A stretch of 64,000 nucleotides of DNA from the NCBI RefSeq assembly GCF_000220175.1, contig NZ_AFPU01000001.1, positions 1,213,512-1,277,511 of the forward strand, read 5' to 3'. Below, one piece after another: positions 52,374 through 59,968 of this stretch (position 1 is the first letter of the stretch; each line of letters starts with the position of its first letter). The position numbers and the translations under genes are program-made. Under the pieces are notes generated by a model, which searched no databases, was not told where the DNA came from, and was given only the letters and a program-made list of their open reading frames with translations. This DNA is from Nitrosarchaeum koreense MY1 (GTDB lineage Archaea; Thermoproteota; Nitrososphaeria; Nitrososphaerales; Nitrosopumilaceae).

Positions 52374-53735
52374 TTGGCAATTTTACCGATAGATAGTGGA
52401 CGTTATGGCACTAAAGAAATGATGGATATTTTTAGTGAACAAAAAAAAGTAAATTATCAATTAGAAATTGAAGGAGCAGCTGCGATATCACAAAGCGAGA
52501 TTGGAATTATTCCAAAATCAGTTGGTAAAACAATTTACAATGCAGCAATGTCAGGAAAAATTTCAGTAAAAAGAATTAAAGAATTAGAAGCAAAAAGTGA
52601 TCATGATACAGCGGCTTTAGTTGAATCATTGAGCGAAAAATGTACAAAAAATGCAAGACCATGGATTCATTATGGATTAACAAGTAATGATTTGGTAGAC
52701 ACAAGTAATTCTATGCAAATGAGAGATGCGTTAAAAATCATAGAACCAAAAGTTGCAAAAATGGCATCATTGTTAGCAAAAAGAGCAGTTCAACATGGTA
52801 AAATCCCAGCAGTGGGTAGAACACATGGTCAACATGCAAGCATAATATCATTTGGATTAAAATTTGCAAATTGGGCAGCAGAAATGGCAAAGCATGTTGA
52901 AAGAATTGAAGAGATTAAGAAACGAGTTTTAATTTGCAAAACACTAGGAGTAGTTGGAACAGGATCATTAATGGGTGCAAAATCACTTGAAGTGCAAAAA
53001 CGAGTTGCAAAACGATTAAACCTATTTCCAGCAGAAGTAACTACACAAATAATTCCCAGAGAGAGATATGCAGAATATGTTTTTGAATTAGCACTTATTG
53101 GTGCAACTTTGGAAAAAATTGCAATTGAGATTAGAAATTTACAAAGAACAGAGATAAGCGAAGTTGCTGAACAATTCAAAAAAGGTCAAATGGGCAGTAG
53201 TGCAGTTCCAGTAAAGAGAAATCCCATAAAAAGTGAAAGAGTGTCATCATTATCAAAAATGCTACGCAGTCAAATAGCAATTACATTTGAAAATATCCCA
53301 TTATGGCATGAACGAGATCTTTCAAATTCAGCAAATGAGAGATTTGTACTACCTACAACAGCCATTCTGATAGATGAAATGCTAGAAACCATGATCAAGA
53401 TAGTTTCAAATCTAATTGTAAATGAGAAGAGAATTGTAGAAAATCTATACATCACAAAAGGGCAAATATTTGCAGAATTTGTTTTAGAGGCATTAATAAA
53501 AAAAGGAGTTCCAAGATTTGTTGCATATAGAGATGTGCAAAGAGTTGCATTTGAGGCAAATGACAAAGGAATGCAGTATATTGACGCAATAAAAAAAGAT
53601 AAAGCTTTCACTGCAATTCTTACAGATAAAGAGATTGATTCTATTTTTTCACCAGAAAAACATCTTGGTGCATCGCCTGCAATAATTAGCAATGTAAAAA
53701 AATCAGTTCAAAAAACAATTAGTAAATTTATTTAG
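52374..53735 (+). CDS. purB: Adenylosuccinate lyase
   Basis: 453 residues from TTG. SRYGTKEM near the N terminus, HYGLTSNDLVDTSNSMQM near residue 101, GRTHGQHASIISFGLK near 147 and the flexible loop MGSSAVPVKRNPIKSE near 272 (catalytic Ser) define the enzyme. It makes AMP from adenylosuccinate and AICAR from SAICAR. It overlaps the convergent AsnB-like gene by 8 nt. Confidence 0.96.
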   Translation: MAILPIDSGRYGTKEMMDIFSEQKKVNYQLEIEGAAAISQSEIGIIPKSVGKTIYNAAMSGKISVKRIKELEAKSDHDTAALVESLSEKCTKNARPWIHYGLTSNDLVDTSNSMQMRDALKIIEPKVAKMASLLAKRAVQHGKIPAVGRTHGQHASIISFGLKFANWAAEMAKHVERIEEIKKRVLICKTLGVVGTGSLMGAKSLEVQKRVAKRLNLFPAEVTTQIIPRERYAEYVFELALIGATLEKIAIEIRNLQRTEISEVAEQFKKGQMGSSAVPVKRNPIKSERVSSLSKMLRSQIAITFENIPLWHERDLSNSANERFVLPTTAILIDEMLETMIKIVSNLIVNEKRIVENLYITKGQIFAEFVLEALIKKGVPRFVAYRDVQRVAFEANDKGMQYIDAIKKDKAFTAILTDKEIDSIFSPEKHLGASPAIISNVKKSVQKTISKFI

Positions 53736-54483
53736 TTTTTAGCAATGCTTTGTGAATTTTAGAACCGTATTGTAATGCTTTTTTTCGTTTTGTACATGAA
53801 ATTTCAGGCACTTTGATTTCACTTGCTAATTTTCTAATAATGTGTTTCCTATACAAGTCTTCAGAGTCATGAATTTTTTCAGAAATTGGAATGGTTTTTG
53901 CATACTCTATAAAATTTGTAGATAGTAATGGCTGAAGAATTTGTACTTTAAATTCAGATGCAATCAAATTTACAGCCTTCATCATTTTTAGTTCATTATC
54001 TAATTTTGTATTCATTACTTCCATTATTTGTGATTCCCCACCAGAAAATGCTTCTCTATATGCGTTATACCCACAAAATAATTCATCAATTCCATTTGCA
54101 GTGATAACGGTATCAAGATTCAAACTATTTGCAAGTTTAGAAACATAATAAAATGCAATACAGTTTTCATTCCATGAAAGGTTCTCTGTCTTTATAATTT
54201 GATGAATTTTTGTTGTAATATTTGCAAAAGTTTCAGGATTAATTTCTAAAATATGATGAGGATACCTTAGAAACGAATTAACTTCTTTTGCAAATAAAAC
54301 ATCATGAGAGTCAACAAATCCAATTGTCAACAAAGTAATATCAAAATTCATCTCAAAGCAAATTTTTGAAATCAGTGTACTGTCAACACCACCAGAAAAT
54401 GCAATTCCAATTTTCTTTGTACTAATAGTTTCAGAAATTGAATTTTTAATATTTTCAAGCAGTTTTTTGTTCATTTCATTCAT
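53728..54483 (-). CDS. Asparagine-synthase-type ATP-pyrophosphatase domain protein
   Basis: 251 residues with GIAFSGGVDSTLISK (PP-loop, residues 26-40), LLTIGF, and TANGIDELFCGYNAYRE, typical of the synthetase half of AsnB. The N-terminal glutaminase domain is absent, so nitrogen would have to come from ammonia or a partner. Ammonia-dependent amidation would suit an ammonia oxidiser, but the substrate cannot be deduced. Confidence 0.82.
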   Translation of the reverse strand: MNEMNKKLLENIKNSISETISTKKIGIAFSGGVDSTLISKICFEMNFDITLLTIGFVDSHDVLFAKEVNSFLRYPHHILEINPETFANITTKIHQIIKTENLSWNENCIAFYYVSKLANSLNLDTVITANGIDELFCGYNAYREAFSGGESQIMEVMNTKLDNELKMMKAVNLIASEFKVQILQPLLSTNFIEYAKTIPISEKIHDSEDLYRKHIIRKLASEIKVPEISCTKRKKALQYGSKIHKALLKTK

Positions 54484-54556: not shown

Positions 54557-54835
54557 ATGATACGATTATCAGAAAATGACATCATTGAAGAACTAAAAAA
54601 TCTACCAGGATGGAGTGTGGTTAACAAAAAACTGCACAAAGAGTTTCAGTTTGGGAGCTTCAATCAAGCTTTTGGTTTTATGACCAGAGCCGCTATGGAG
54701 ATTGAAAAAATGAATCATCATCCAGAATGGTTTAATGTCTACAATAGGATAACTATAGAATTAACAACTCATGACGCTGGAGGCATTACAAAAAATGATG
54801 TCAATCTAGCCAAAATTCTAAATTCATTACAATAG
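54557..54835 (+). CDS. phhB: Pterin-4a-carbinolamine dehydratase
   Basis: 92 residues: [20 protein letters not shown] near the N terminus, [20 protein letters not shown] with the catalytic His pair near residue 55, and [14 protein letters not shown]. It dehydrates 4a-hydroxy-tetrahydropterins. Followed after 69 bp by the PTPS-fusion gene, suggesting shared pterin metabolism. Confidence 0.93.
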
Positions 54836-54904: not shown

Positions 54905-55720
54905 ATGGCTACAAGTCCCACAATTCTAGATTCAGATTTTAGATATATCGATAAAAAAGGAAATTTACTAAAAACTAGAACAGAATTAACAGTAGCTCAG
55001 ATGCTCTCATTTTTAGATCAAGAATACCAATACAATCACAAAATTACATTAAAAAACGGTAAAGAAGTAACAATTGATTTTAAAACAGAAAAAGGCCTCA
55101 TCGAAGTAATTGATAATGATGAAGATATTATAAAATACAAAAAAATCAAAGAAGATTTTCCAGAACAAAAAGTAATGGCAATAGGCCATGCAAAATATGT
55201 AGCACAAATTAAAGAACTTCAGGACATTGTGTTTTATGATAAGACACCACAAACAGGTTCAATATTTTTAGAAGATGCATCATTTTCATTTGATTATGCA
55301 CATATTCTTCCGTTAGTAGAGAAATGTTCAATTTTACATGGACATACATCTTCTGTCATGGTAGAATTAGTTGGACAAATGAAAGATAACCTCCTTGTTG
55401 ATTTTGGTATTGCAAAAAAAATAATCAAAGAAGTTGTTGTAGAATTTGATCATAAATTTTTCATTAACAGAAAATATCTAAAAAGAGAAGACGATTCACA
55501 TTATCAAATACAATTTGATGGTCCAAAAGGAATGTTTGACATTCAAGTTCCAATAAATACTGCATATCTATTAGAAGGAGAAGCTACTGTAGAAAATCTT
55601 TCAAGTGAGATAATCAAACTCCTTGCTCCTAAATTACCTCATAATGTAGAAGCCGTTGGTGTTTACATTTATGAAGGATACAATAAAGGATCTCACATTA
55701 TTTCAAATATTTCAAGATAA
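54905..55720 (+). CDS. PD-(D/E)XK-like domain fused to 6-pyruvoyltetrahydropterin synthase/QueD-like domain
   Basis: 271 residues. Residues 20-118 look like a restriction-endonuclease fold: TRTELTVAQMLSFLDQ (Glu27), ITLKNGKEVTIDFKTEKG (Asp58) and LIEVIDN (Glu67-Val-Ile69), so the usual catalytic Lys is replaced by Ile. Residues 120-271 are a PTPS/QueD domain: FSFDYAHILPLVEKCSILHG with Cys141, HGHTSS (zinc His), DFGIAKKII, FDHKFF, and VENLSSE. PTPS-type enzymes make pterins or preQ0 precursors. The nuclease fold is my inference from motif spacing. Confidence 0.75.
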   Translation: MATSPTILDSDFRYIDKKGNLLKTRTELTVAQMLSFLDQEYQYNHKITLKNGKEVTIDFKTEKGLIEVIDNDEDIIKYKKIKEDFPEQKVMAIGHAKYVAQIKELQDIVFYDKTPQTGSIFLEDASFSFDYAHILPLVEKCSILHGHTSSVMVELVGQMKDNLLVDFGIAKKIIKEVVVEFDHKFFINRKYLKREDDSHYQIQFDGPKGMFDIQVPINTAYLLEGEATVENLSSEIIKLLAPKLPHNVEAVGVYIYEGYNKGSHIISNISR

Positions 55721-58056: not shown

Positions 58057-58755
58057 TTATACATGTATAATTCCATTTGTTATCAAATATTGAAGTCCAG
58101 AAACAAACTCAGCATCTTCGATTAATCCATCTGCCCACCATCCAGCATTATTTTTTATCCAGTTTGGGATAGGCTGCTGTGAAGATTGTTCTGATTGAGT
58201 TTGAGGAATAGTCATTATTTCTTCATTAATTAAATATTGAATACCTAAAACAAAATCAGCATCTTCGATTAATCCATCTGCCCACCATCCAGCATTATTT
58301 TTTATCCAGTTTGGAATTACAATTTCAGTATCGGAGACAAATGGGTTTAATGCATATGTACCAATAATTTCAACAATTGAATCTCCATTAAAAAATGGAA
58401 TCATCAAAGTTCTTGATGTTGATGTGGATTTTGATTCAACATAGTCAGTTTCAAAACCATCTACTAAAACAAAAAACATATCATCGGTTAATTCAAATGT
58501 TGCATCTAAGATCTCTCGCGGAATTGTAATTTCAATAGTCCCATCATCTTGAGTATTCATAGTAATGATTAATTCAAAAAAATCAGGATCCAGAAAAATG
58601 GACTCTATATTTCCGTGTTCAATGTTATAAATTACATCAATTGATTCTATAGCAACAACTCCTGAATCTGCAAATGAGTTTGGAATTATTAATGGAATAA
58701 AAAAAACAACGAAGATTAAACTAAATAAAAATAAAGATTTAACACTATTCATCAT
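58057..58755 (-). CDS. Secreted protein with two WIKNNAGWWAD repeats
   Basis: 232 residues with a signal peptide (FLFSLIFVVFFIPLIIPNSFA). The N-terminal part is a beta-rich domain. The C terminus has two copies of IPNWIKNNAGWWADGLIEDA, each followed by FVxGxQYLI, a motif common in exported thaumarchaeal proteins. The start overlaps the stop of the upstream coiled-coil gene (ATGA), so the two are an operon. Function unknown. Confidence 0.8.
   Translation of the reverse strand: MMNSVKSLFLFSLIFVVFFIPLIIPNSFADSGVVAIESIDVIYNIEHGNIESIFLDPDFFELIITMNTQDDGTIEITIPREILDATFELTDDMFFVLVDGFETDYVESKSTSTSRTLMIPFFNGDSIVEIIGTYALNPFVSDTEIVIPNWIKNNAGWWADGLIEDADFVLGIQYLINEEIMTIPQTQSEQSSQQPIPNWIKNNAGWWADGLIEDAEFVSGLQYLITNGIIHV
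58110..58315 (-). repeat. Two near-identical 59-bp copies encoding the WIKNNAGWWAD motif
   Basis: 58110-58168 and 58257-58315 are identical over at least 57 of 59 nt, 147 bp apart, in frame. The near-perfect DNA identity suggests recent duplication or gene conversion. Confidence 0.85.
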
Positions 58756-59912
58756 TTATCGCCAAATGACATTCCTTCTTCTAATGAAGTAGTAATATTA
58801 TTTCCAGAGACAATATTTTCAGAAGTTAATTTAGTTAGAGTTGCATTACCATTAAGAATCCATAAATTAGAAATTTTGCTTTGTGGACCAATTATTGAAA
58901 CTTGAGATTGATCAATATTGTTAATTGGGATATTAGCATTTACAAAAAGCTTCATTGTAGTATGTAGTTCTTCAAGCACGCCATCCTCTAAAAATGCCAT
59001 AATTACAAGCGAATCTTTAGCGCCTGATTGTCCTGAAGATACAGTTCTAGCTTTTCCAAATCCGCAATTATAATTAATTTCATCAACAACAATATTACAT
59101 TCATTTAATTCTAATTTAAGATCAGATTTACTTTTATCATATAATGTAAATGTCATTTTGCCAGTCAGAGTAGACATTTGTGATTGGTTTGATACTTGAG
59201 ATGCATCTACAGAATCAAAAGTCAGCTCAAATGTTTCAGTATAATCTTTGGTCGGAGTTTTTACTCCCATGTATTGTCCATCATTTATCTTATCAAGAAT
59301 GTTTTTTATTCTAGAATCCAATTTATCAGACTTTTCTGCAAGTCTTTGTTGAATTTCTTCGGATTTTTTAATAACTTGTTCTTCAATCTGTTTAGATTTT
59401 AGAGAAATTTCATCACTAGATATGTTTGCTTTAATTTTATTTTGAGATTTCTCTTTGATTTCTTTTAATTTTTCTTCATATTGTTGGAATTTTTTTGATT
59501 GTTTTGCTTCAAGATTTTCTCTGTTTGTAACAAGTTCAGCTTTTTTCTGTTCTAATTCCTTTTGTCTTTCTTCAGCTTTTTCTTTCTGTTCAGCTTTTTT
59601 CTGTTCTAATTCCTTTTGTCTTTCTTCAGCTTTTTCTTTCTGTTCAGCTTTTTTCTGTTCTAATTCCTTTTGTCTTTCTTCAGCTTTTTCTTTCTGTTCA
59701 GCTTTTTTCTGTTCTAATTCCTTTTGTCTTTCTTCAGCTTTTTCTTTCTGTTCAGCTTTTTTCTGTTCTAATTCCTTTTGTCTTTCTTCAGCTTTAGAGT
59801 CATCATCATTCAAAGATGGATTTTGTGCAAAGGCATCACCATAAAGTAACCCAAATATGCCCAATAGTAAGATAGAACAGAATGTATATGATAAAATAAA
59901 ATTTGTTTTCAT
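58752..59912 (-). CDS. Secreted coiled-coil protein with 18-residue repeats
   Basis: 386 residues from ATG 59912. A signal peptide (FCSILLLGIFGLLYGDAFA) is followed by 4.8 copies of KAEERQKELEQKKAEQKE, then more coiled coil to about residue 205, and a C-terminal beta domain with VDEINYNCGFGKARTV. The charged coiled coil would be a long extracellular rod. The gene at 58057 is coupled downstream. A TTG at 59927 could add five residues. Confidence 0.8.
   Translation of the reverse strand: MKTNFILSYTFCSILLLGIFGLLYGDAFAQNPSLNDDDSKAEERQKELEQKKAEQKEKAEERQKELEQKKAEQKEKAEERQKELEQKKAEQKEKAEERQKELEQKKAEQKEKAEERQKELEQKKAELVTNRENLEAKQSKKFQQYEEKLKEIKEKSQNKIKANISSDEISLKSKQIEEQVIKKSEEIQQRLAEKSDKLDSRIKNILDKINDGQYMGVKTPTKDYTETFELTFDSVDASQVSNQSQMSTLTGKMTFTLYDKSKSDLKLELNECNIVVDEINYNCGFGKARTVSSGQSGAKDSLVIMAFLEDGVLEELHTTMKLFVNANIPINNIDQSQVSIIGPQSKISNLWILNGNATLTKLTSENIVSGNNITTSLEEGMSFGDK
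59535..59796 (-). repeat. 54-bp in-frame tandem repeat, about 4.85 copies
   Basis: Identical 54-bp units begin at 59535, 59589, 59643 and 59697, with a partial unit from 59751. Each encodes 18 residues of the coiled coil. No base differences were seen between units. Confidence 0.92.
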
Positions 59913-59968
59913 TTTAAAATTTTCCAAGTTATGGTTAAAAAGAATTGCGATGAAGTTATCATAATGGA

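Follow-up and report, generated by a model that had tools for sequence, protein, structure and literature searches.

PTPS-family enzymes are told apart by a short motif, with CxxxHGH marking QueD (PTPS-I), CxxxxxHGH marking PTPS-II and ExxHGH marking PTPS-III (PMC5041015). In the 64,000-nucleotide stretch of the Nitrosarchaeum koreense MY1 genome that we analysed (the window), one gene joins a domain of the first of these types to an N-terminal domain whose predicted structure resembles that of PD-(D/E)XK nucleases. Like QueD (PTPS-I, COG0720, TIGR03367), the encoded protein has a PTPS domain with the CxxxHGH motif and the expected catalytic and zinc residues, and its genome holds the preQ0 pathway genes; unlike QueD, it carries the N-terminal domain and an insert of ~30 residues, scores below the TIGR03367 cut-off and does not adjoin queE and folE. 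The folate-type enzymes PTPS-III and PTPS-VI (Plasmodium PTPS, 2a0s; the PTPS-III PF1278 of Pyrococcus) belong to the same enzyme family but differ from the fused protein, which has CxxxHGH and lacks the Glu of ExxHGH. With the PD-(D/E)XK superfamily, the N-terminal domain has in common the core order of helices and strands and three acidic positions, the nearest structures being DrdV, R2 endonuclease, AbaSI/PvuRts1I and phage endonuclease I, whereas an invariant Ile in place of the Lys, the junction with a pterin enzyme and the lack of a sequence-level relative set it apart. We found neither a description of the fusion nor a PTPS family carrying the same extension with a defined role in Pfam, NCBIfam or the searchable literature, a scope that leaves out most subscription journals.

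With modest confidence, we read the protein as a QueD-type enzyme of ammonia-oxidizing archaea whose N-terminal domain is a degenerate nuclease fold, fused once and kept as a structural or docking module. Predicted fold, lost residues, distribution, selection and pathway genes all have computed support, and the enzyme activity and the docking are what we infer. The features concerned are collected in Table 1.

Table 1. Features of the fused gene and its upstream neighbor (window coordinates; homologue counts refer to distinct homologues)
Feature	Position	Strand	Evidence
Gene for the 271-aa fusion of a PD-(D/E)XK-like domain (N-terminal) with a PTPS/QueD-type domain	54905..55720	+	Frame and start confirmed
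N-terminal domain, residues 1-118	54905..55258	+	AlphaFold2 model; nuclease matches in structure search
Glu27 codon, acidic residue of predicted helix A	54983..54985	+	111/114 homologues
Asp58 codon, acidic residue of predicted strand 2	55076..55078	+	113/114 homologues
Lys60 codon, possible shifted lysine	55082..55084	+	112/114 homologues
Glu67-Val68-Ile69 codons, E-x-K position with Ile for Lys	55103..55111	+	Glu67 110/114, Ile69 114/114 homologues
PTPS/QueD-type domain, residues 119-271	55259..55717	+	PF01242, E=1e-17 over residues 126-260
CSILHGH, residues 141-147, QueD-type CxxxHGH	55325..55345	+	Sequence, invariance, motif class of PMC5041015
Stretch with clade-specific insert of ~30 residues (residues 185-223)	55457..55573	+	DH-xTxEN spacing; strands in model
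PCD, pterin-4a-carbinolamine dehydratase	54557..54835	+	PF01329, E=1.3e-32; in 79/80 related loci

An earlier note, made from the letters of the window alone, had recognized in the N-terminal domain the spacing of a PD-(D/E)XK core, and fold prediction agrees with it. An AlphaFold2 model of the domain, built on a 48-sequence alignment, has a mean pLDDT of 78.7, rising to about 90-95 over residues 30-80, and places helices (H) and strands (E) in the series H25-36, E41-48, E54-61, E65-69, H72-84, E90-94 and H96-103. This predicted alpha-beta-beta-beta-alpha-beta(-alpha) order is that of the PD-(D/E)XK core, and it recurs in a full-length model that was built on another alignment and has lower overall confidence (pLDDT 69.7). 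The structure modelling used no loci extracted from the genome collection. The acidic residues are modelled on the canonical elements (helix A holds Glu27, strand 2 Asp58 and strand 3 Glu67), and Ile69 occupies the site of the Lys. A Foldseek search of the PDB with the domain returned mostly PD-(D/E)XK nucleases (DrdV, R2 endonuclease, PvuRts1I/AbaSI, Bax1, Can2 and T7 endonuclease I), all of them weak matches, the best having an E value of 0.029 and none reaching 0.001; a viral structure library gave nine matches at or below 0.001, of which the named ones are mostly endonucleases. The profile search that the note had called for came out divided, in that the PTPS domain and PCD were recognized and the N-terminal domain had only weak matches, all under the cut-offs, to the sequence profiles of Pfam, NCBIfam and the PDB, with no nuclease family recognized among them. 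No relative was found in the viral contigs searched. Computation supports reading the N-terminal domain as a degenerate PD-(D/E)XK fold.

The loss of the catalytic Lys, also claimed earlier, extends to every one of the 114 distinct homologues, in all of which Ile69 stands in its place. Pairwise dN/dS for the N-terminal domain lies between 0.03 and 0.17, near the values for the PTPS part (rough estimates, with several dS close to saturation); judged by this comparison of sequences, the domain is under strong purifying selection, which is why we do not regard it as a chance reading. That it is catalytically dead is well supported, though not proven, given that Lys60 is kept in nearly all homologues (Table 1).

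The PTPS domain itself is complete, as the note had it: besides the PF01242 match, the seven expected residues H133, C141, H145, H147, D182, H183 and E257, to which we assign the zinc-binding (His) and catalytic roles known for the PTPS fold, are invariant in the 114 homologues, CSILHGH carrying two of the three expected zinc His. Biopterin-type PTPS-II and folate-type PTPS-III were both rejected as assignments, the motif being CxxxHGH rather than CxxxxxHGH and SILHGH standing at the place of ExxHGH. Against the QueD model TIGR03367, the protein scores 59.6 bits (E 3e-16), under the cut-off of 89.25, so we use the label QueD-type without counting it as a member of that family; the short QueD of genome G102 also stays under the cut-off, with 77.5 bits, and the QueC and QueE of the N. 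koreense genome likewise miss theirs. The distance from DH to xTxEN is 46 in the fused protein, compared to 12-14 in the short QueD-type proteins measured, and the full-length model folds the intervening insert into beta strands. By this spacing the insert is clear in the measured proteins of families f1, f2, f3 and f32 and in those of loci L043, L044 and L041. The best structural match of the full-length model in the PDB is 2a0s.

Among named proteins, the nearest relatives come mostly from Nitrosopumilus and Nitrosarchaeum, at 82-99% identity. In a search of 398 genomes, a profile of the N-terminal domain matched 72 of the 73 genomes sampled among three families of ammonia oxidizers, f1 (Nitrosopumilaceae), f2 and f3 (which we infer to be Nitrosocaldaceae and Nitrososphaeraceae), with no clear match elsewhere. 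The domain is joined to PTPS in all genomes whose loci were read, and none of the 398 has it standing alone, the few matches outside the fusion being weak fragments. In G382, counted among the 72, the fused gene is split over two frames (G382:C1:133572-133900), by a sequencing error or a real frameshift. The sole exception, G102, has a short QueD-type protein of 118 residues (L050:4653-5009) in place of the fusion; in the tree this protein sits on a long branch among further short PTPS proteins. All fused PTPS proteins fall into a single clade (support 100/99), consistent with one fusion event, and by this phylogeny the fusion probably goes back to the common ancestor of the ammonia oxidizers. 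Positions 1-68 of the N-terminal domain have a related counterpart in two f17 proteins (L043 and L044; HHalign 94%, E 1.4e-7), which lack Glu27 and the second half of the domain. The long N-terminal stretches of f32 and f6 PTPS proteins were rejected as relatives, with HHalign probabilities of 0.1 and 0.4%. The G291 assembly contains a second PTPS of 181 aa (L009:1495-2040); judged by eye, the remaining ORFs of its contig resemble those of phages.

A search of the N. koreense genome for a separate QueD found none, the fused gene being its only PTPS. The genome has one clear QueC, FolE, a QueE-like radical SAM protein and a TgtA above its curated cut-off; queE, folE and queC are clustered without queD, away from the fused gene (L189), and comparable clusters occur in f2 and f3 (L185, L186, L187 and L191). 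MptA was not found in this genome. Being the sole PTPS, with a CxxxHGH motif and with queE, folE, queC and tgtA elsewhere in the genome, the fused protein is most likely what carries out the QueD step for archaeosine. In the pathway that we propose, FolE would yield dihydroneopterin triphosphate, the PTPS domain would convert this to 6-carboxytetrahydropterin, QueE and QueC would carry it on to preQ0, and TgtA would insert preQ0 into tRNA for archaeosine. The N-terminal domain would no longer cut nucleic acid and probably persists as a structural part of the PTPS oligomer or as a site where proteins dock on it, an oligomer being usual for the family. For the QueD step itself the domain appears unnecessary, because G102 has a plain short QueD. 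The TgtA of this genome (L193:899-2440) has no PUA domain in Pfam, in agreement with the reported lack of that domain from TgtA in Thaumarchaeota (PMC6790972).

Other readings of the N-terminal domain have to account for the same residues and models. If Lys60, which lies on strand 2 two residues past Asp58, replaced the lost lysine, the domain might still be an active nuclease, and both Lys60 and the acidic residues Glu27, Asp58 and Glu67 are indeed kept in most homologues. However, Lys60 gives way to Met in L036 and to Thr in L063, and Glu27 or Glu67 is lost in L035, L037, L038 and L061; from these sequences, we consider continued cleavage highly improbable. The failure of every sequence profile to recognize the domain, together with PDB matches that stop short of an E value of 0.001, could instead mean that its fold is a different one and its likeness to nucleases accidental. 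Against this stand the agreement of two models from different alignments, the predominance of PD-(D/E)XK nucleases among the matches in both structure libraries and the canonical positions of the acidic residues, and we give an accidental likeness very little credence. The earlier note had suggested that the dead fold might bind tRNA or DNA and target the enzyme there, a reading that can be widened to the localization of several pathway enzymes in one complex. The nuclease-like predicted fold, the largely retained acidic residues and the missing PUA domain of TgtA, in this genome and as reported for Thaumarchaeota, would fit such a role. Yet the substrate of QueD is a free small molecule, handled some steps ahead of the entry of the base into tRNA, and G102 manages with a plain short QueD that has no such domain, and we do not favor nucleic-acid binding, which seems to us decidedly unlikely. 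A structural or docking role remains our preferred reading of the domain.

A different question is whether archaeosine is the only product that the enzyme serves. Directly after the fused gene, f2 (L032-L034) and some of f3 (L036 and L039) have another QueC-family gene, QueC2, which differs from the QueC clustered with queE, and the PTPS-QueC2 pair recurs in f17, f32 and f48, where the PTPS is of the same clade without the full N-terminal domain. The loci in which QueC2 adjoins an insert-type PTPS are L032-L034, L036, L039, L043-L048, L064-L066, L069 and L071. Next to the pair in f48 lies a gene for a GCHY-1 GTP cyclohydrolase. Six f32 genomes have no TGT above the cut-off and no clear QueE, and in six f17 genomes TGT is present and a clear QueE again missing. 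Completeness is 88-97% for most of these genomes, and the QueE of this phylum is divergent, so that the absence of QueE from both and of TGT from f32 is, as far as sequence searches go, likely but not proven. If the absences are real, the pair has a use in f32 other than making archaeosine. One could then picture the insert-bearing PTPS clade, QueC2 and a GTP cyclohydrolase, perhaps with PCD, as a pterin pathway that does not lead to preQ0, in which the fused enzyme works instead of, or besides, acting as QueD. The recurrence of the pair, the adjoining cyclohydrolase, the gene content of the f17 and f32 genomes and the presence of PCD as neighbor of the fusion in 79 of 80 close relatives speak for this pathway. 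On the other side, QueC2 is not adjacent in any of the f1 loci examined, the one strong QueC of the N. koreense genome sits in the queE-folE cluster and needs a QueD, and f17 and f32 may yet hold a QueE of divergent sequence. We consider such a pathway possible but unlikely. The fuller version, in which the clade and QueC2 form an undescribed archaeal pterin pathway without QueE and TGT and the PTPS of ammonia oxidizers, joined to its dead nuclease fold, also serves archaeosine, is to us a rather doubtful proposition. We retain the QueD role for archaeosine as the preferred account.

Ammonia-oxidizing archaea are very abundant, and nearly every one sampled has the fusion, usually as its only PTPS. 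On the preferred account, the fusion would show cleanly how a nuclease fold can be put to a second use in small-molecule metabolism. The PTPS clade in addition points to genomes that keep QueD-like and QueC-like genes and in which the remaining deazaguanine pathway was not found.

Around the fused gene, PCD, which the earlier note had correctly named as the upstream neighbor, ends 69 bp before it, and the ORF that lies 7 bp downstream is presumably a leucyl-tRNA synthetase. PCD is in turn adjoined by a 251-aa asparagine-synthase-like PP-loop gene (window 53728-54483, minus strand), which is present in 76 of 80 related loci. Farther downstream on the minus strand, one ORF (58057-58755) contains PNWIKNNAGWWADGLI twice and the next (58752-59927) carries tandem KAEERQKELEQKKAEQKE repeats.
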